54,549 nucleotides of DNA from Planctomycetota bacterium (GCA_028823395.1 JAPKBO010000004.1:1-54549); one strand, 5' to 3'; counted from the stretch's first letter, positions 36,678 to 49,128 are shown. The notes: a model not told the origin generated them from the letters alone. Made by a program: numbers and translations.

Positions 36678-37967
36678 ATGGGCTTCTCTTGGTCCCTCCT
36701 GGCCGGCACCTTTGTGCTGGGCCTAACCGCAAACAAACCCCACCCCCTCGACGGCCCCGATGTGGACCTCCGTCTTTGGGTGGAAGCGGAATCGGTCACG
36801 GCCCACGTGGTCTTGAATCTGGCCTTCGTTGATGCGTTCCTAGAGATTCCGCGCGAAGACGAGATGCTCTTGCGCGGACCCGAGCATGAATTGGCGGCGG
36901 ACATGGTGTTCGAACTCCTGTCGGAGCGCCTATCGGTAACGGCGGGTTCCATTCAGCTCCGGCCACAGCTCGCGGATTTCGAGGTGATCGACCCTAACTT
37001 CGATCTCCTGGCACATTTCCCACGCTTCGGCACCCGCGCCATGCAGAAGCTACGCATGACCTTGGAGTTCCCACTGGAGACACCACCTTCGGAAGTGAAG
37101 TTCACCTGGCGTGCGTATGCCGATGACCCGATCCTATCCGAGCCCCGTTATCCAGTACCCATGGACGTCGTCGCCCACTTGAGTGCGGGAGGAGTGCGCA
37201 CGCGCGTCACGCTCAAAGCGAGCGACCCAACCTTCACCTGGCGTGGCCTTACCGCTGCCGCCGAGGATCACTTCGAGAATGTTCCGGGCCTCTCTAAGCC
37301 GGAGCCCATCCAATGGCCCCTGCTAACCCTGGCCTTGGCCGGGGCCGGGATAACCTTGCTAGCTCCTCGACGCCGCAGACGCCGGCGTGCGCTCCTAACT
37401 GCTGGCGTGACATGCCTTGTCGTCGCGCCATTTGCCTGGAATCTGCGCACGGACCTATCCCCGCTCAACAGCGGGGACATCCTGCCCTCGCACTCCCAGG
37501 CGAAGGCCGTCTTCGAACCCCTACACACGAACATCTACCGCGCCTTCGATTTCACCAACCAGTCGGATGTGTACGACTCCCTCGCACGCAGCGTGCACGG
37601 CGATCTGCTCGACGAACTGTACAACCAGATCCACGAGGGCCTGGTGATGCAGGAGGAGGGCGGGGCCGTGAGCGAGGTTCAGGATCTACGTCTCAAGGAG
37701 CTCTCGATTGAGGGCGTGGGCTTGGACGACACGGGTTCCCCCACTTTCCGCGCCCGCTGCCAGTGGGAAGTGGACGGTGCTGTGTTCCACTCGAACCACT
37801 CGCATTGGCGCACCAATCAGTACGAAGCGCGCTACGGAGTGGCGGCAACGGCAGCAGGCTGGCGCATCGTCTCACACGAGATCCTGGCGGCACGCCGTGT
37901 AGACGCAGGCCCCATTCTGCCCCAGGACACTCAAGAGAACCCACCACCCCCGGGAGAGGCCTTTTGA
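36678..37967 (+). CDS. Membrane protein of an FtsX-type ABC cluster, function unknown
   Basis: I do not recognise a named family. The 429-aa protein has a signal or anchor helix (FSWSLLAGTFVLGLTAN), a beta-rich extracytoplasmic region (residues 25-205), two helices (LLTLALAGAGITLLAP and LLTAGVTCLVVAPFAW) flanking a basic cytoplasmic loop RRRRRRRA, and a second folded domain (residues 270-415: AKAVFEPLHTNIYRAF, DVYDSLARSVHGDLL, FHSNHSHWRTNQYEARYG). It overlaps the ABC ATPase start (TTGA) and precedes a permease and a metal-binding-type lipoprotein. Its position implies it is part of that transporter. Confidence 0.7.
   Translation: MGFSWSLLAGTFVLGLTANKPHPLDGPDVDLRLWVEAESVTAHVVLNLAFVDAFLEIPREDEMLLRGPEHELAADMVFELLSERLSVTAGSIQLRPQLADFEVIDPNFDLLAHFPRFGTRAMQKLRMTLEFPLETPPSEVKFTWRAYADDPILSEPRYPVPMDVVAHLSAGGVRTRVTLKASDPTFTWRGLTAAAEDHFENVPGLSKPEPIQWPLLTLALAGAGITLLAPRRRRRRRALLTAGVTCLVVAPFAWNLRTDLSPLNSGDILPSHSQAKAVFEPLHTNIYRAFDFTNQSDVYDSLARSVHGDLLDELYNQIHEGLVMQEEGGAVSEVQDLRLKELSIEGVGLDDTGSPTFRARCQWEVDGAVFHSNHSHWRTNQYEARYGVAATAAGWRIVSHEILAARRVDAGPILPQDTQENPPPPGEAF
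37952..37959 (+). promoter_or_regulatory. Ribosome binding site deciding the ABC ATPase TTG start
   Basis: GGGAGAGG lies four bases before TTG 37964-37966. There is no nearby in-frame ATG, so this fixes a TTG start that overlaps the upstream stop. Confidence 0.65.
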
Positions 37968-38644
37968 CGGACCGTGCCTTACTCACTGCGGAGGCCCTGC
38001 GCTTCGCCTACCCCGAGGGTCGCTTCGTGGCTCACGTGCCCCGGTTCCGGCTGGACCGTGGTGAACGCGTGGCCTGCGTGGGCAGCAGCGGCGCGGGAAA
38101 GACAACCCTCCTGCATCTTCTGACCGGAGTACTGCGCGCTGATAGCGGACGCATTGAACTGAACGGGGCGAGACTCACAGATCTGGACGAAGAGTCGCGC
38201 CGCGCTCTGCGCATTCGCACGGTTGGCATGGTGTTCCAGCAGTTCGCTCTGCTCGATTACCTGTGCGTACTCGACAACATCCTGCTGCCGTACCTGGTTT
38301 CGGAGGCTCTGGACCTGGACGCAACGGTACGGGAGCGCGCCCGATCGCTGGCGGAGGCCACGGGCATTGAAGCTCTGCTCGACCGCAAGCCGGGACAACT
38401 ATCCCAGGGCGAGCGCCAACGGGTGGCCCTCTGCCGGGCACTGGTCACCGAACCGCCCCTGGTTCTTGCGGACGAGCCCACGGGCAACCTGGACGCCACA
38501 CGCACCGACGCGGCTATGGATCTGCTCTTTGAGGTCTGCGCCCGACACGGCAGCACGCTGCTTGTGGTAACCCACGACACACGCCTCCTGGAACGCTTCG
38601 ACCGAGTACTGCAGTTGGAAGAGTGCATGCAGGTCACCCGATGA
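37964..38644 (+). CDS. ABC transporter ATP-binding protein (MacB/LolD type)
   Basis: The cytoplasmic ATPase powering the adjacent FtsX-type permease. The 226-aa product has Walker A GSSGAGKTT, the Q-loop VFQQFALLDYLCVLDNI, the signature LSQGERQR, Walker B LVLADEPTGNLD and the switch VVTHD, the pattern of MacB/LolD subfamilies. I place the start at TTG 37964 (MTDRALLTAEALRFAYPEG), which has a strong ribosome site; the track's earlier ATG at 37763 is inside the preceding gene. The stop overlaps the permease ATG. Substrate is not read from sequence. Confidence 0.9.
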   Translation: MTDRALLTAEALRFAYPEGRFVAHVPRFRLDRGERVACVGSSGAGKTTLLHLLTGVLRADSGRIELNGARLTDLDEESRRALRIRTVGMVFQQFALLDYLCVLDNILLPYLVSEALDLDATVRERARSLAEATGIEALLDRKPGQLSQGERQRVALCRALVTEPPLVLADEPTGNLDATRTDAAMDLLFEVCARHGSTLLVVTHDTRLLERFDRVLQLEECMQVTR

Positions 38645-39816
38645 GAGGTCTTCTCCATATGGCAGGAGCCCATGCCCGCCATCACCGCTGGCGCAGCCTC
38701 CTACTGACCTTCTGCCTGACCGTGGCCTTCCTTCTGCCCGCCACCACGCGCCAGTTGATGTCGCGCTACGAACGTGACCTCTCAGCACGGGCTGACACGA
38801 CGCCCCTTGTGGCTGGAACCCGTGGCAACCGCTTCGATCTGACCCTGGGCGCTCTCTACTTCCGCCAAAGTGCGCTCGAACCTGTGCACATGGGCCTCCT
38901 GGAACAGATTCAGGATAGAGGCCGCGGAGTGGCCGTGCCCCTGCACACAGGGCACCTGGCCAGGGAAGCCACCCTGGTAGGAACGAGCCTTGAGTACTAC
39001 GAACAACGCGGCCTAAGGACCGTCACGGGCAGCCTGCCCATGATGATCGGGGACGCACTGCTCGGCTCAGCCGTGGCGGCGCGCTTGGGGCTTGGACCCG
39101 GAGACGGCCTCAACAGCGACCCAACCAACCTCTATGACATCAATCAGCCCGGTGCCACGCGCCTGTCGGTCTGCGGCGTGCTGGCCCCCACGGCAACTCC
39201 TGACGACGATGCTGTATTCGTAGACATCAAGACGGCCTGGATGGTCAGCGGTCTGGTGCACGGGCACGGAGATGTCACCTCGCCAGGCGCGCTTGAGGAG
39301 GACATGATCCTCTCCCGCGGCGAGGACTCGCTCTCAGTCAGTCCCGCTCTGATCGAACATGACCAGGTAAGCGAGGAAAATCTCTGGGACTTCCATCTGC
39401 ATGCCAGTCCCGAAGAGTTGCCGCTCACGGCCATCCTCTACTTCCCTGCCGACGACAAGGACGCCACGATCCTGAAAGCCGAGTTCAATCGCTCAGCGGT
39501 GCATCAGATGGTCGGGCCGCGCAAGGTGGTGGATGAACTCTTGAACTACGCATTCAAGATCAAGCGCCTCCTGGACGGAGTCGCCCTAGTGCTGATCATC
39601 TCGACTCTGATCTTCGGCGGGCTCGTTCTTTCCCTTACCGCACGTCTGCGCAAGGAGGAATTCGACATGTTGCACGCCATCGGCTGTAGCCGTTCTGCCA
39701 CCTGGAAGTTAGTGGCCCTAGAGCTAGCGGGCATCGTCACTCTGGCGGCCGCTGGAGCAGCAGTTGGGCTAATCCTCCTCATCACCCTCGCGCCAGACCT
39801 GATACGCGTGTTCTGA
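38641..39816 (+). CDS. FtsX-family ABC transporter permease
   Basis: The membrane partner of the preceding ATPase. The 391-aa product has an N-terminal helix (SLLLTFCLTVAFLLPATT), a large extracytoplasmic domain (residues 40-300) and at least two C-terminal helices with the FtsX signature LRKEEFDMLHAIGCSRSATWKLVALE between them. This mechanotransmission type moves lipids, lipoproteins or toxins rather than small ions. The start is the ATG in the ATGA overlap. The following binding lipoprotein begins 12 bp later. Confidence 0.85.
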   Translation: MRGLLHMAGAHARHHRWRSLLLTFCLTVAFLLPATTRQLMSRYERDLSARADTTPLVAGTRGNRFDLTLGALYFRQSALEPVHMGLLEQIQDRGRGVAVPLHTGHLAREATLVGTSLEYYEQRGLRTVTGSLPMMIGDALLGSAVAARLGLGPGDGLNSDPTNLYDINQPGATRLSVCGVLAPTATPDDDAVFVDIKTAWMVSGLVHGHGDVTSPGALEEDMILSRGEDSLSVSPALIEHDQVSEENLWDFHLHASPEELPLTAILYFPADDKDATILKAEFNRSAVHQMVGPRKVVDELLNYAFKIKRLLDGVALVLIISTLIFGGLVLSLTARLRKEEFDMLHAIGCSRSATWKLVALELAGIVTLAAAGAAVGLILLITLAPDLIRVF

Positions 39817-39828
39817 TTCTTTCGTTCC

Positions 39829-40785
39829 ATGCTCATGACCATCTCCTCTAGCACTTCCCCGCGGGTAATCTCGAATACCCTGCTCGGGATGGCGCTCCTG
39901 GTCGGCTTGAATGCCTGCGGCGGGCCCGAAGAGGCCGAACCCATCCAATTGGACGGGCGTGTCCTGGCCACCTTCTTTCCCCTGGAATCCATGGCCACCG
40001 TCATTGCGGGAGACGCGGTGGAAGTCCATTGCCCCCTGCCAGCCGGCGCCGACCCCCAGCTCTACAAACCAACCCGCGCAGAGTTGGCTCTCTACCAGCG
40101 CGCAAGCCTGGTGCTCACCAACGGTGCGGGTTTTGAGCGCTGGTTGGCCAGCGCGAGCTTGCCCCCGTCGCGCATTGTGGATACGGCCAGCGAATTTACA
40201 GAGCCCTTGATCCAGCACACGGGAATGACCCACTCCCACGGGTTCGAAGGCGATCATTCTCACGCAGGCACCGATGGCCACTACTGGCTCGATCCCCTCT
40301 TGGCCCTGGAGCAAGCGCGCCGTTGCGCCGAGGCCATGTCGCGCGCCTTTCCAGAACACGCCGAGACTTTCGCGACGGGCCTCGCCCGATTGGAGGCTGA
40401 GCTCGGCACTTTGCACGAGCGTTTCACCTCCGCCATTCCGCAGGGCACGCGTCTCATCGCCAGCCATCCGGCCTACGACTATCTGGCCAGGCGCTACGGC
40501 TGGGAGATACACAGCCTGGATCTGGACCCCCAGTCCCCCCTGAGCGAAGAGCAACTCACAGAGCTCCAGCGCCTGAACGGCTCACTTGAGCCGGCCCTTA
40601 TCCTCTGGGAATCCGAGGCCCTCCCCGCCACACGCGAGGCTCTTGAGTCCCACATGGGCCTACGATCGGTGGTTTTTTCTCCAGCGGAAAACCCCAGCAC
40701 GGTCCAGCGTGCAGAGGGCGCCACCTTCCTGGACATCCTCACCGCCAATCTACAGGTGCTCGAAGCAAGTCTGGGCGAAGAGTGA
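39829..40785 (+). CDS. Metal-type substrate-binding lipoprotein (ZnuA-like)
   Basis: A cluster A-I solute-binding protein, the family of zinc and manganese import receptors. The 318-aa product has a lipoprotein signal (LLGMALLVGLNAC then GGPEE). It has VLATFFPLESMATVIAG, LVLTNGAGFERW, a His-rich segment HTGMTHSHGFEGDHSHAG, DGHYWLDPLLALEQ, SHPAYDYLARRYGWEIHSL and ILWESEAL. The His ligands (SHP, GHYWLDP) point to zinc. It follows the FtsX permease in the same operon, an atypical pairing. ATG 39829 or the third codon could start it. Confidence 0.85.
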   Translation: MLMTISSSTSPRVISNTLLGMALLVGLNACGGPEEAEPIQLDGRVLATFFPLESMATVIAGDAVEVHCPLPAGADPQLYKPTRAELALYQRASLVLTNGAGFERWLASASLPPSRIVDTASEFTEPLIQHTGMTHSHGFEGDHSHAGTDGHYWLDPLLALEQARRCAEAMSRAFPEHAETFATGLARLEAELGTLHERFTSAIPQGTRLIASHPAYDYLARRYGWEIHSLDLDPQSPLSEEQLTELQRLNGSLEPALILWESEALPATREALESHMGLRSVVFSPAENPSTVQRAEGATFLDILTANLQVLEASLGEE

Positions 40786-42615: not shown

Positions 42616-43380
<765 letters not shown>

Positions 43381-43401: not shown

Positions 43402-45336
43402 TCAGGCCGGAACGGGAGGCGTCTCGCCGCTACTCAACCGACTGGAGTTGGCGATCACGAACAGCGCCCCAGCGTTGTGCAACACCGCGCCCGTCAACGG
43501 ATTGATCACACCCAGGGAAGCGAGGGTCACCATGCCCACACTGAACAGGGTGCCGATAAGCGCATTCTGAACCACCACCGAGCGCGTCTTCTCGGCCAGG
43601 CGCATCATCATGGGCAGGCGGTCTAGGTTTTCCGAGAGCAGAGCCACGTCTGCACCGCCCAAGGCCACCTCATTCACGCGCGCTCCAACAGCCACGCCGA
43701 CGTCCGAACCGGACAGGGCAAGGGCATCGTTGACGCCGTCGCCCACCATCATCACCTTGTGGCCGCCGGCCTGTTCCTCGCGGACGACCTCGAGTTTTTG
43801 TTCGGGCAGGACCTCGGCCACATAGGCATCGAAGCCCAGCTCTTCGGCCACCTCCCGGGCCACCTCCTCGCGGTCGCCCGTCAAGAGAACCAAGCGGTTC
43901 ATTCCCAGTTGGCGGGTTTGTTCGAGGGCGGCGCGAGCCTCTGCGCGGGGCCGATCGGAGAAGGAGAGATAGCCGAGCACCTCTTGGCCACGTGCGACCC
44001 AGACTCCGGGTCCACTAGCCGGCGCCTTTTCGGGGACAGCCACACCTTCATCCGCCAGCCACTGACGGCGGCCGAGAAGGCAAGGCTCGCTACCGGCCAC
44101 GCGTACACCCTTGCCCGGAATTTCTTCACTGACTTCCGCGGGGGTGTATTCCAATTGCGATTCTTCAGCCGCACGGACTAGGGCCCGCGAAACCGGGTGC
44201 AGAGATCCATGGGCGCAACCTGCTGCGACCCGCAAAACCTCCTGCTCCACCTGACCGCCGAAGGGAATGATCTGATCTAGACTGAGGGCCCCCGCGGTGA
44301 CGGTACCGGTCTTATCTAGAATGAGGGTGTCGACCTCAGCCACGGTCTCCAGAAAGGAGGCGCTCTTGATCAAGATGCTCCGCCGTGTGGAAGCCGTCAT
44401 GGAGACAATCATGGCCGCCGGTCCCGCAAGAACCAGGGCGCACGGACAGGACACGATCAAAACAGCGATGGCCCGGTCTAACTCACCCGTGATAAAAAGC
44501 GTCACGCCCGCGACGGAGAGCACAACCGGCAGGTAAACCCCTGCGTAGCGCTCGATCAAGCGCAGAGCCGGGGTCTTGGACTGTTCCACCTCGCGCAAGG
44601 TCTCCACGACCCGGCCCAAGACGGACTGCCCCCCCACGCCCTCAGCGCGAATGCGCAAGACGCCACCCAGATTGACGGTACCGCTGAAGACCTTGGAGCC
44701 CGGCTCGACATCCTCATAGACCGACTCGCCGGTGATGGGCGCCTGATCCACAGAGGAGAAGCCCGTCAGGACCTCGCCGTCCACGGGAATGACCTGTCCG
44801 GGCCGAACGATAACCTCGTCTCCGCTGCGCAACTGGTCGGGTTCGACCTCTTCCTCCGTCCCGTTCTGAACTCGGGTCGCTCGTTGGGAGGACAGCTTGC
44901 GAATGCCGTCGATAGCCGCCACGGCTCCACGCGAGGAGCGCTCCTCGAATAAGTGTCCGAGTTCCAAGAACAGGGGCACCAACCCCGCAGTCACAAACTC
45001 TCCCACGGCCATGGACGCCAGCACAGCGAGGCTGACCAACTGTTCGGTCAAGTTGGCGGGTTCAGAGCTCATGAAGCCTCGCAGACCGCGGCGCAAGATG
45101 GGGGTCGCCACGACGAGAGCTGCGACAGCCTGAATCAAGGCCGCTACGTCCGCCTGGTCGGGTACCACGAAGGCGTACAGGCTGCCCAATCCAAGCATCC
45201 CAATACCCAGCAACAGGGGGCCGAGCTGCATAGCAATACTGCGCTGCTCCTCTGGAGTGAGGGGCGCTTCTATATCACGCGGATCCAGGGGCCGGGGCTC
45301 CAGGCGCGGGGTAACGGCAGAAAGGGCGCTTTGCAT
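43402..45336 (-). CDS. P1B-type heavy-metal-transporting ATPase
   Basis: An inner-membrane ATPase exporting a transition metal. The 644-aa product has the TGES actuator motif (PITGESVYED), the transmembrane SCPCALVLAGPAAM (CPC site), phospho-acceptor DKTGTVTAG, SLHPVSRAL (HP motif), MMVGDGVNDALAL, and two terminal helices. No N-terminal HMA domain is seen. The last helix has VLHNAGALFVIANSS where ZntA has ADTGATVLV, so the M8 Asp is Asn and the M7 Lys is not evident; the metal cannot be assigned. It begins 3 bp after an SPFH gene in the same operon. Confidence 0.9.
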   Translation of the reverse strand: MQSALSAVTPRLEPRPLDPRDIEAPLTPEEQRSIAMQLGPLLLGIGMLGLGSLYAFVVPDQADVAALIQAVAALVVATPILRRGLRGFMSSEPANLTEQLVSLAVLASMAVGEFVTAGLVPLFLELGHLFEERSSRGAVAAIDGIRKLSSQRATRVQNGTEEEVEPDQLRSGDEVIVRPGQVIPVDGEVLTGFSSVDQAPITGESVYEDVEPGSKVFSGTVNLGGVLRIRAEGVGGQSVLGRVVETLREVEQSKTPALRLIERYAGVYLPVVLSVAGVTLFITGELDRAIAVLIVSCPCALVLAGPAAMIVSMTASTRRSILIKSASFLETVAEVDTLILDKTGTVTAGALSLDQIIPFGGQVEQEVLRVAAGCAHGSLHPVSRALVRAAEESQLEYTPAEVSEEIPGKGVRVAGSEPCLLGRRQWLADEGVAVPEKAPASGPGVWVARGQEVLGYLSFSDRPRAEARAALEQTRQLGMNRLVLLTGDREEVAREVAEELGFDAYVAEVLPEQKLEVVREEQAGGHKVMMVGDGVNDALALSGSDVGVAVGARVNEVALGGADVALLSENLDRLPMMMRLAEKTRSVVVQNALIGTLFSVGMVTLASLGVINPLTGAVLHNAGALFVIANSSRLSSGETPPVPA

Positions 45337-45339
45337 GGA

Positions 45340-46416
45340 CTAGAACGGAATGGTGATCCGGAGGTTCTCGTAACGCTCCCCGACCGGAGGCGGCACGAAG
45401 CGTTTGGTCACGGGCGAGAGGGCACGCTCGATGGACTCGCGGTACAGCCGCACACGCACGACCTCGGGGTTCTGAAGATACTCGGCCAGCAGCGCTTCAA
45501 AGGCATCGGACTCACCGCGAGCGCGGCCGAGACGCTGAGCCGCTTCGGCACGAGCTTGGGAGATGCGTGTGGTGCTGCGCGCCATCGCAGCAGGCACCTC
45601 TATGGCACCATACTCGCGCGCTTCCTCAATCAGTGTCACCGCATCGATCATGCTGCTGACCACTTCACGGAAGGCTGGCAGGACCTGAAAGGGAGGGCTC
45701 AGGCGTTCGAACTCAACGGCCACCAATTCCATGCCGGCGTCGGCCGCATCAAGCAGAGCCTGAGCACGCTCACGCACCATACCCGAGAGGGTGAAACGCC
45801 CCTCAGCCATCATCTCTTCAATGGCCATCGTACCCGCGCTGGTGACCATGGCGGTGCAGACGGCATCGCGCATGAGTGCATCGGGGTCCTCGATCTCAAG
45901 TGCATAACGGATGGGGTCGCTGACCCGATAGCGCGCCAGCAGAACCGCCTGCAGGACGTTGTCATCTCCGGTCAGGCAGTAGCCATCCTGTTCCGGGTTG
46001 ATCGTGTCGCGCCGCGAGAAGCCGCGCGAGGAGGTAAGGGGGCCTCCCATCGCATCTTGTTCACGGCCCAACCCGCTCGCTAGGTCTGCCACACGCACGC
46101 TATGGACCTTCTCAACGTCAACACGCAGCACCTCGTCGATAGGTGCGGGCAGGGCGAAGAGGAAGCCCGATTCGTGGACCTGCTGCCCTGGGCTATCCCC
46201 CACAAGTCGCCCCATGCGCAGCACCAAGGCCACCTGCCCGGGCTGAACGGAAGTCAGACCCGACACAGCGTAGAGCACGAGTAAGACGAGAATCGGCCAG
46301 TGATAGACACGCAGCACGAAGCCCACCAGCCCCAGCAGGGGTGAGGCCATGCGGGCCCACTCTGCCCCGGTCACTTCACGGACCTGGGAGGGACGCTGTA
46401 GGGAGCCGCGTTTCAC
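45340..46416 (-). CDS. SPFH-domain membrane protein, HflK-like
   Basis: A 358-aa prohibitin/stomatin-family protein that likely assembles into a membrane ring. It has an N-terminal helix (WPILVLLVLYAVSGLTS), VQPGQVALVLRMGRLVGDS, GFLFALPAPIDEVLRVDVEKV, an insertion with ARG/GFSRRDTINPEQ, LTGDDNVLQAVLLARYRV and a helical C-terminus (QARAEAAQRLGRARGE). The GTG start overlaps the stop of the HflC-like gene (GTGA). Members normally modulate membrane proteases or organise domains; no FtsH lies in this window. The P-type ATPase follows 3 bp later. Confidence 0.85.
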   Translation of the reverse strand: MKRGSLQRPSQVREVTGAEWARMASPLLGLVGFVLRVYHWPILVLLVLYAVSGLTSVQPGQVALVLRMGRLVGDSPGQQVHESGFLFALPAPIDEVLRVDVEKVHSVRVADLASGLGREQDAMGGPLTSSRGFSRRDTINPEQDGYCLTGDDNVLQAVLLARYRVSDPIRYALEIEDPDALMRDAVCTAMVTSAGTMAIEEMMAEGRFTLSGMVRERAQALLDAADAGMELVAVEFERLSPPFQVLPAFREVVSSMIDAVTLIEEAREYGAIEVPAAMARSTTRISQARAEAAQRLGRARGESDAFEALLAEYLQNPEVVRVRLYRESIERALSPVTKRFVPPPVGERYENLRITIPF

Positions 46417-47342
46417 TGGCCCCGATCTCCTTGCGCCTGATCCTGTCCCGCCGGATCCGGAAGCGTCGGAGCTTCCAGTAAGCCGAAGGGAGCACTGTCC
46501 GTGCGCAGGATGATGGTAGCCCCGGTGCCCAATAAGGTCTCCAAGGCCTCTAGTTGACGGACGAAGCGATAGAACTCCTCGTCTGCCCCGTGTGCGGCAG
46601 CGTAGACACGCGCCGCTTCAGCCTCGGCCGCGCCCCGTGTCTTGGCCGCCGTCTCACTCGCCGTAGCAAGAATTCGGGCCACCTCCAGATCCGCCTCGGC
46701 GCGCACCTGGGAAGCTTGGCGATCCCCATCAGCGCGGAATACAGCGGCGGATCGTTGCCGCTCCGCGCGCATCTGGGCAAACACACTGGTGATGTTGGAC
46801 TCGGGCAGGGAGAGGCGCTTGAAGCCCACGTGGTCAATCTGAATGCCGTAGTTCTCGGCAGCCTTTACCTGAACGGCGGCAAGAAGGTCGGCCTCGATGG
46901 AATTCACGGCCAACAGTTTTTCGTCGGTGGAGACAAGTGCCGACAGGTCGTAGTGCCCCAGCACTCCGGTCTTGGCATCTATGATCAGGCCCTCCAGCTT
47001 GCTGGCAGCGCCCTCCATGGATCCCACGGCGCGATAGAAATCCCAGCAATCGGCCACACGCCAAACGGCGTAGGACAACAGGATCACGTTCTTCTTGTCG
47101 CGCGTCAGCACTTCGGCATGGCGCGTGTTGAACACCCGCGTACGGCGGTCAATGGTGGAGACCCGCTCGATGGGCCAAGGCAGTTTCCAATGCAGGCCGG
47201 GTTCGGAGACCTCATCCAGAGGCTTGCCGAAGCGTGTGACGAGGGCTGAATGCTCCTCGCGCACGGTGAAAGTAACCGCAGAGAGTACGGTGACCGTCAC
47301 GGCCAGGAATCCGACGATCCAGCGCAGGGTATTGCTTCGCAT
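46413..47342 (-). CDS. SPFH-domain membrane protein, HflC-like
   Basis: The 309-aa product has a single helix (WIVGFLAVTVTVLSAVTFT), REEHSALVTRFGKPL, GLHWKLPWPIERVSTIDRR, LTRDKKNVILLSYAVWRVAD, a YGIQIDHVGFKRLSLPESNITSVFAQMRAER segment and an Ala/Arg coiled coil, the layout of HflC (E. coli 334 aa). The track's start at 47696 is inside the preceding gene; ATG 47342 (MRSNTLRW) is correct and lies 4 bp after that gene's stop. It overlaps the downstream HflK-like gene. Likely forms a complex with the other two SPFH proteins. Confidence 0.88.
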   Translation of the reverse strand: MRSNTLRWIVGFLAVTVTVLSAVTFTVREEHSALVTRFGKPLDEVSEPGLHWKLPWPIERVSTIDRRTRVFNTRHAEVLTRDKKNVILLSYAVWRVADCWDFYRAVGSMEGAASKLEGLIIDAKTGVLGHYDLSALVSTDEKLLAVNSIEADLLAAVQVKAAENYGIQIDHVGFKRLSLPESNITSVFAQMRAERQRSAAVFRADGDRQASQVRAEADLEVARILATASETAAKTRGAAEAEAARVYAAAHGADEEFYRFVRQLEALETLLGTGATIILRTDSAPFGLLEAPTLPDPAGQDQAQGDRGQ

Positions 47343-47346
47343 GGTG

Positions 47347-49128
47347 CTAGAGATCCTCCAGGGGTGTGGAGCTTGCGGCGTTAGAGCCGTTGATCCACAG
47401 GGCTCCACCATCCCTCTCGAAGCGTTGGTCAATGACCACAAACGAACGGCCCTGCAATTGGGCCTCACGTGCTTCGAGCAGGCGGCGGAAGGTGAACAGT
47501 TCGGGGGCTGCGGCGTACATTTTCTGAACGGCGCTGAAGGCCTCGGCTTCGCCGCGCGCGAGAGCGACGCGCGCCGTGGCGTTCGCATGGGCGCGATTCT
47601 CCAGGCGGTTAGCCTGGGACTGAGCGCCAGGAAGGACTTCGTTGGAGTACGCCTGTGCTTCAAGTACGCGTGTGTTGCGATCAATACGCGCGCCAACCAC
47701 GGCCTGGTAATCCTTGGCCACGGAGACGGGCGGGTGCAGTCCCATAAGCGCCAGATCCACGACCACCAAGCCCAGGTTTAATTCGTCTGCGCTCTGCTGA
47801 ATGCGCTCTTCGATCTGAGTGGCAAGTTCCGAGAGGTTCTCGGACAGCGCGCTGTCCAGGCTGCGCCCGACAGTCTCGTCCATCATCACGCGATCGGCGA
47901 CGGCCGCCAAGGCGCCCTCGGGATCAGCGCAGGAGTACAGGTAGACCAACGGGTCGCCCACCTTGAATTGCAGGACGGCGTTGACACTGATCAACTCATG
48001 ACCGTCTCCGAGCAGGAGCTTGTACTCCTCCTCGGCGTGCTGAGCGGTCCAGAGCATAGAGGCCCCTCTCTTCGCCCGTGCGAACCCGATGGGCAAGCTG
48101 CGCACCCGGTCCACGGCCACACGATGTACGGACTCGATTGGCCAGGGCCAGCCCAGGTGCAAGCCAGGAGTCACCGGAGCGCGGCCAGAGCGTGCTCCAA
48201 ACACCTCTACGACCCCAACCTCCGCTGGTCCCACAAGGGTAAAGGCACTTCCCACCCAGCCCAGGCCGGCAAGGGCCAGCAGGGTCGGTGCCAGAGAGCG
48301 CCGGATGAAGGCCAAGGCCCAGCTTCCGCGCAGGTCGATACCGAAGGCGTCGGTCAAAAAAGCGAAGAAGCTCGAAACCGGATCTAAGCGTCCGAAGAAA
48401 ATACGCAAGAAGACAGGACTGGCCAGGGCCAAACGTCCCGTGCGCCGTGCCAGCACAGCGATCAACAGCCCTTCAACCAGGAGCTCAATCACGAGGAAGG
48501 TCTCGAACTTAGAAAGCGTCGGTGCCAGCCAGGTCAACTGATCGCCGTGCAGGTAAGCCGCAGTTTCGAAGAAGGTCAACCAAGCCGTGACCCGCAACCA
48601 CGAGGCCAGGCCTTGCGCCTCGGCCAAGACCTCCGTGCGCGTGGTGCCGTAGAAACGGGCCAAGAGCAAGAAGGCCACAACTGCGGTGAGGGAGATCACG
48701 ACTACCCCCGTGGAGTTTAGCCATGCGATAGAGCCAAGACCGAGCGCCAAGGGCGCCTTGAATTGTTCGTAGCTGAGTTGCCAGATGGCAACGGCACCCG
48801 CACCGCTGAGGGTCAACACCAGCGCAGCAAGACGGCCCGGGGCAGAGGGCGCGACCTCTTCAGCGCCTCTGCGTGTGAATACAGCCAACCGTCGGCGCAC
48901 GAGCAGAAGGATCCAGCAGGTGGTCAGCGCCAAGGCTCCTGGCACGAGGAACTCTCCAAGCCCTACGGCCAAGGCTAGAGCCAGGAGGATTGCCCCCATC
49001 AATCCCGGGCCACCCAACAGCACGAGAGTCGCAATGCGCAAGTGCTCCAAGCGCGCCGCCCGGTGCAAGTCCACGCTCTCGCCAACGGCACGGTCGGCTA
49101 CTTCGGTAGATTGGTTGGCAGGGGACAT
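47347..49128 (-). CDS. SPFH-domain protein with a six-helix membrane domain (HflK-like fusion)
   Basis: A 593-aa protein, first gene of the operon. Residues 30-295 carry about six to seven membrane helices (for example LVLLGGPGLMGAILLALALA, FETFLVIELLVEGLLIAVL), a domain not found in standard HflK. The SPFH part follows: VGPAEVGVVEVFGARSG, GLHLGWPWPIESVHRVAVDRV, LLLGDGHELISVNAVLQFKV and a C-terminal coiled coil with NRLENRAHANATARVALARGEAEAF. No HflK-like signal is apparent. It is translated 4 bp upstream of the HflC-like gene. Confidence 0.82.
   Translation of the reverse strand: MSPANQSTEVADRAVGESVDLHRAARLEHLRIATLVLLGGPGLMGAILLALALAVGLGEFLVPGALALTTCWILLLVRRRLAVFTRRGAEEVAPSAPGRLAALVLTLSGAGAVAIWQLSYEQFKAPLALGLGSIAWLNSTGVVVISLTAVVAFLLLARFYGTTRTEVLAEAQGLASWLRVTAWLTFFETAAYLHGDQLTWLAPTLSKFETFLVIELLVEGLLIAVLARRTGRLALASPVFLRIFFGRLDPVSSFFAFLTDAFGIDLRGSWALAFIRRSLAPTLLALAGLGWVGSAFTLVGPAEVGVVEVFGARSGRAPVTPGLHLGWPWPIESVHRVAVDRVRSLPIGFARAKRGASMLWTAQHAEEEYKLLLGDGHELISVNAVLQFKVGDPLVYLYSCADPEGALAAVADRVMMDETVGRSLDSALSENLSELATQIEERIQQSADELNLGLVVVDLALMGLHPPVSVAKDYQAVVGARIDRNTRVLEAQAYSNEVLPGAQSQANRLENRAHANATARVALARGEAEAFSAVQKMYAAAPELFTFRRLLEAREAQLQGRSFVVIDQRFERDGGALWINGSNAASSTPLEDL

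Follow-up and report, generated by a model that had tools for sequence, protein, structure and literature searches.

HflK and HflC are SPFH-domain proteins, and bacterial complexes of this type are best known as regulators of the protease FtsH; the roles of other SPFH proteins are a recognised open question. The E. coli HflK-HflC-FtsH system combines HflK-type and HflC-type SPFH subunits, has a protease as its cargo and is encoded by two SPFH genes that lie with hfq/hflX. Proteins of the same superfamily are encoded at positions 43402-49128 (minus strand) of a 54,549-nucleotide stretch of DNA from Planctomycetota bacterium (GCA_028823395.1 JAPKBO010000004.1:1-54549), which is referred to here as the window. 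Three SPFH proteins, named K1, HflC-like and K2, are followed by a P1B-type metal ATPase, whereas the E. coli system includes neither a multi-helix domain, such as K1 carries, nor a pump. The four genes probably specify one dedicated machine, in which an SPFH dome would house and gate a zinc/copper pump.

Precedents exist for parts of this arrangement. SPFH domes can enclose membrane transport proteins, as the stomatin dome does around aquaporin-1/UT-B (PMC12407830). The stomatin dome is, however, a eukaryotic homo-oligomer on the cytosolic side of the membrane, and its cargoes are channels that are not encoded together with it. PacL1-CtpC of Mycobacterium features a dedicated scaffold with a metal-binding motif that is encoded with a P1B-ATPase (PMC9374683). 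That scaffold is a DUF1490 protein and not an SPFH protein, it forms foci without flotillin, and the pump is an exporter (PMC9374683). Conserved operons of SPFH genes are also known, however, the partner is NfeD and the survey that describes them does not mention ATPases or metals (PMC2636767).

The closest described locus is the hmtA cluster of Pseudomonas aeruginosa, PA2434-PA2439, in which PA2439 is an HflK-family protein, PA2438 is HflC, PA2437 is an HflC-family protein, and PA2436 and PA2435 (HmtA) complete the set (PMC4542158, PMC8531726, PMC11761036). In a znuA mutant PA2435 and PA2437-PA2439 are raised 5.6- to 14-fold (PMC4542158), zinc depletion raises the proteins of the cluster (PMC11761036), and the PA2439 promoter is bound by Zur (PMC8531726). 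HmtA reportedly increases the zinc and copper content of cells, although import is said to need confirmation (PMC10393844). A survey of SPFH proteins in strain PA14 deleted a three-SPFH operon, paFlo5-7, and found mild phenotypes only; the available portion of that paper mentions no metal test and no ATPase (PMC13086221). We infer that paFlo5-7 corresponds to the SPFH genes of the hmtA locus. The window operon has the same gene content and order, with three HflK/HflC-family genes, an HflK-like gene first, then HflC and a third SPFH gene, and then the P-type metal ATPase. It differs in that the hmtA locus has the extra gene PA2436 between the trio and the ATPase, has PA2434, and is under Zur control.

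A reading of the window made from the DNA alone had proposed an undescribed metal or membrane-quality system. The membrane-quality alternative gained no support. The word undescribed holds only in part, since the hmtA locus has been published as a zinc-regulated cluster, however, no paper was found that treats the SPFH trio and the pump as one system. The zinc papers merely list the SPFH genes and do not consider them part of a transporter, and the SPFH paper, in its available portion, leaves out the ATPase. No HmtA-type named model is listed in NCBIfam.

The operon begins with K1 (47347..49128, minus, 593 residues), which consists of a six-helix membrane domain, an anchor helix, an SPFH domain and a coiled coil. 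The K1 stop is followed after 4 base pairs by the HflC-like gene (46413..47342, minus, ATG start, 309 residues), which overlaps the HflK-like K2 gene (45340..46416, minus, GTG start, 358 residues) in a GTGA stop/start that can be read directly at 46413..46416 (minus). The ATPase gene (43402..45336, minus, 644 residues) starts 3 base pairs after K2 and lacks an N-terminal metal-binding domain. Pfam assigns a single Band_7/SPFH domain to each of K1, HflC-like and K2, and PF00122 (E1-E2_ATPase) and PF00702 (Hydrolase) to the ATPase. HflC-like scores 171.7 bits with NCBIfam hflC, above the cut-off of 134.4, and K1 and K2 score 134 and 149.1 bits with hflK, both slightly below its cut-off of 159.4. 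The ATPase reaches 500 bits with the heavy-metal P1B model TIGR01525 (cut-off 346). The open reading frames and the Pfam and NCBIfam matches thus bear out the gene order, strand and spacings given by the sequence-only reading, as well as its statement that no protease is encoded among the four genes and that the last product is a metal pump. The source genome (3.8 megabases, 85% complete) has a single FtsH above the cut-off and it lies on a different contig. Among the window genes and flanks, neither ftsH nor hfq/hflX adjoins the operon, and no NfeD family member was found among the operon or flanking genes scanned. A canonical hflKC operon was rejected on the basis of the missing linkage to the usual partners, the third SPFH gene and the pump. 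An assembly artefact was also rejected because the four-gene unit is also present in complete replicons, both a chromosome (CP036290) and plasmids.

The four-gene arrangement recurs in dozens of lineages, far beyond chance and mostly in the same order. In the genome's own family (81 genomes) six ATPases show at least 60% identity and all six stand in the four-gene unit, and the next pumps fall below 40%. A subfamily-specific ATPase segment, scanned once against 84,980 species genomes, recovered 12 loci, 11 of which have the unit in the same gene order. The labels of these loci are Planctomycetota, Acidobacteriota (Thermoanaerobaculia), Myxococcota and Pseudomonadota, the last three being from metagenome-assembled genomes (MAGs). 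A sample of 392 Planctomycetota genomes from across the phylum was also examined by ranking ATPases by family-profile bits. Sixty-seven ATPases score at least 540 bits, of which 61 are linked to SPFH genes, 3 are at contig ends and 3 are unlinked in the stretch read. The linkage of close relatives (61/64 assessable) compared with that of ATPases of 460-540 bits (9/30 examined) shows that the association is specific to this ATPase subfamily. We count the unit in roughly 67 of the 392 genomes, and 34 further linked loci were recovered starting from the ATPase. The order K1-C-K2-ATPase is found in nearly all fully read loci, with two exceptions in which the ATPase comes first; in some families the ATPase is upstream of K1.

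The linkage also holds when it is approached from K1. The trio is not widespread without the ATPase, an outcome in favour of the sequence-only reading, as the ATPase is in the cluster at 33 of 40 loci found by K1 matches and on another contig at three (G403, G448, G130). The remainder are two exporter::SPFH fusions and two loci that lack an ATPase (L091, L102). On plasmids, the ten records matched by the Klebsiella K1 are also the ten best ATPase records (co-occurrence 10/10). They comprise Klebsiella aerogenes pYD-K10_1 (conjugative), seven Rhizobium plasmids, one from Paraburkholderia sprentiae and one from Burkholderia ubonensis (conjugative). Trees of the four genes from 47 loci have a mirror correlation of 0.81-0.91 compared with at most 0.17 in permutations, a measure that still includes shared species history, and 27-34 of 44 splits are common to the trees. 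Cross-phylum placements appear in the ATPase tree and the HflC tree alike.

The Klebsiella copy of the unit (L156, 2140-7866) has a Tn3-family transposase gene near it. In E. coli genomes nothing was found to match this Klebsiella operon at the nucleotide level.

Natural fusions join metal transporters to HflK-type SPFH domains in two independent ways. The first is a single 993-residue reading frame (L110:5228-8209, minus) in which a P1B-ATPase precedes an HflK-type SPFH domain, with HflC and HflK genes after it. This fusion was found once, in a 61% complete MAG where a four-gene unit is present separately as well (L173). Its ATPase lies outside the clade of the operon ATPases, and therefore a pump and an SPFH domain were joined independently. 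The second kind is found at 18 loci in several families. There the opening gene joins an SO_0444 Cu/Zn permease to an HflK-type SPFH domain, and HflC and HflK genes come after it. The SO_0444 part scores ~390 bits against a cut-off of 300 in the three loci scanned, and a ZIP transporter gene is directly upstream of the fusion wherever the contig reaches. In every version, then, the trio opens with a gene that fuses a membrane domain to an SPFH domain. The co-occurrence, the congruent trees and these fusions give strong support to a coupling between the SPFH trio and a metal pump. The SO_0444::SPFH loci are L034-L039, L044-L046, L118 and L134-L141 (e.g. L037:5599-10582), and many copies contain internal His-rich loops.

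The catalytic motifs of the pump are intact. Alignment of the window ATPase revealed the CPC motif of the fourth transmembrane helix (TM4; residues 297-299, 44440..44448, minus), TGES, the DKTGT phosphorylation motif (residues 341-345, 44302..44316, minus), GDGVND and HP. DKTGT is kept in every operon ATPase sequence that reaches that far, and the orthologues also retain TGES (TGEP in one) and GDGxND. The window ATPase does not show the residues that mark ZntA-like P1B-2 pumps, a Lys in the TM5/6 region and an Asp in the last helix. Ser and Asn stand at the aligned places and a His-Asn pair (residues 620-621, 43474..43479, minus, by alignment) is found in the last transmembrane helix, where ZntA has its metal-site aspartate. 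In a tree the operon ATPases form one clade with 100/100 support, separate from ZntA and from the ordinary P1B pumps of the same family.

K1 features a six-helix N-terminal domain (residues 1-230, 48439..49128, minus) and a Pfam Band_7 domain at residues 299-493 (47650..48234, minus). AlphaFold2 models, made with 37 and 33 relatives, predict that six long helices precede the SPFH anchor helix (helices at residues 21-230 and 270-293). The mean predicted local distance difference test score is 76.5 for whole K1 and 84.9 for the N-terminal domain, for which the predicted template modelling score is 0.80. No Pfam family is common to the N-terminal domains of 33 members and no Cation_efflux match is listed. 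A Foldseek search with this domain placed the CDF proteins YiiP/ZnT at the top, with probability up to 1.0 and a template modelling score of ~0.45. This weak resemblance to a zinc-transporter fold is a lead only. The matches listed for whole K1 are all SPFH or vault proteins, and PDB 7wi3 and 9cz2 rank among the best of them.

HflK and HflC have their N-termini on the cytoplasmic side. His-rich stretches, defined as at least 9 His in 30 residues, were found at 13 of ~49 loci compared with 4 of 480 neighbouring open reading frames, two of which are ZIP transporters. They are located at the N-terminus of HflC (7), of K2 (2) or of the ATPase (3), and in a loop of K1 (1). The subunit that bears the His tail varies between lineages, which is consistent with the subunits belonging to a single complex.

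In the proposed machine K1, HflC-like and K2 would assemble into a hetero-oligomeric SPFH dome on the periplasmic side of the inner membrane. The P1B-ATPase would lie within it, much as FtsH does in HflKC and aquaporin-1/UT-B in stomatin, and the six-helix domain of K1 probably docks the pump. The dome would control the access of a transition metal, most likely zinc and possibly copper, to the outer face of the pump, and may also control the stability of the pump. Inside the cell, metal would be gathered or accepted, in some relatives, by His-rich cytoplasmic tails that extend from HflC, from K2 or from the ATPase. By analogy with hmtA of P. aeruginosa, uptake under zinc limitation is suggested over export, by a slight lead only. 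A broader reading, which we hold tentatively and think somewhat less probable than not, is that SPFH domes define a general class of caged metal transporters, in which independently recruited pumps and permeases sit in an HflK/HflC dome. The members would be HmtA-like P1B-ATPases, other P1B-ATPases by fusion, and SO_0444 permeases with ZIP. Such a dome might form a closed periplasmic metal compartment, and the six-helix domain of K1 might be a degenerate transporter-like docking unit.

The occurrence of the four-gene set across many bacteria and on plasmids suggests that the role of SPFH cages extends beyond protein degradation to metal transport. The operon offers a candidate non-protease cargo for HflK/HflC-type SPFH complexes that is backed by natural fusions. 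It could also account for the three SPFH proteins of P. aeruginosa that are regarded as orphans, and for the unusual behaviour of HmtA as a P-type ATPase reported to import metal. The idea is readily testable, as P. aeruginosa with the SPFH genes deleted is already at hand (PMC13086221) and an enterobacterium carries a compact version of the operon on a plasmid.

Several observations weigh against a dome dedicated to a zinc or copper pump. The TM4 motif of the orthologues is CPC, CPT, CPS, CPG, TPC or TPT (TPT in two), and the metal and the selectivity may therefore differ between lineages. Three close ATPases showed no SPFH partner in the stretch read, the K1 loci L091 and L102 have no ATPase, and the twelfth locus of the large scan (L058, 9581-11584), a second copy of an operon-type ATPase in a Deltapro3 MAG, has no SPFH neighbours. 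The likeness of the K1 N-terminal domain to the CDF family is not significant by the Foldseek E-value (0.16 or worse). No Zur-like palindrome above shuffled sequence was found upstream of the operon and four plasmid copies, although Planctomycetota Zur sites may differ. Additionally, the likeness to hmtA rests on gene content and order.

The alternative that survives best, although we consider it unlikely, is an export or detoxification platform in which the trio gathers the pump into a PacL-CtpC-like membrane microdomain, with no enclosed dome. Most P1B-ATPases export, the SO_0444-type permease of the parallel system is named for Cu/Zn efflux, plasmid carriage suits resistance functions, and PacL1/CtpC demonstrates that a P-ATPase platform can be scaffolded (PMC9374683). 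However, zinc shortage induces hmtA, the closest characterised locus, which encodes a reported importer, and no metal-resistance genes are annotated around the plasmid copies read. PacL platforms also exclude a flotillin-like protein and use DUF1490, which is absent from the operon; Pfam gives Band_7 alone in the three partner proteins, and a PacL-type platform was rejected on this basis.

A slightly poorer and likewise improbable explanation is that the trio modulates the genome's FtsH in the manner of HflKC and happens to protect or turn over the ATPase via proteolysis, with no dome around the pump. E. coli HflK/HflC do cage FtsH, the best fold matches of K1 include PDB 7wi3 and 9cz2, an FtsH exists in the genome, HflC-like is above the HflC cut-off, and the authors of PMC11761036 point to HflB/FtsH regarding PA2437-2439. 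Against this, FtsH is unlinked, K1 and K2 are under the HflK cut-off, the SPFH genes travel with the pump across phyla and onto plasmids, and the transporter::SPFH fusions place the SPFH domain on the transporter itself. Genomic hitch-hiking, in which a general envelope-stress module of SPFH genes would simply share a transcript with the pump gene, is very improbable, as a few ATPases and SPFH sets do stand alone but the two-way linkage is near 95%, the trees are congruent and two independent kinds of fusion involve metal transporters.

The surroundings of the operon include further transport genes. TerC is a metal-transport family, and a gene for a TerC-family membrane protein (42616..43380, plus, Pfam TerC 167 bits) converges on the ATPase gene. 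A TerC gene also adjoins the operon in two other genomes, G025 and G050 (loci L030 and L031), one of them of another genus. Genes for an ABC ATPase, an FtsX-like permease and a ZnuA-like metal-binding protein lie in a row at 37763..40785 (plus), 3-6 kilobases from the operon, and a ZnuA gene is near the operon in G025 as well. In distant Planctomycetota (L097-L120) the unit is often followed by genes for an ABC-2-type ATPase and permease downstream of the metal ATPase. At L084-L088 an ArsP_1-type permease gene is directly before K1, and the ATPases of this clade have CPG in place of CPC.

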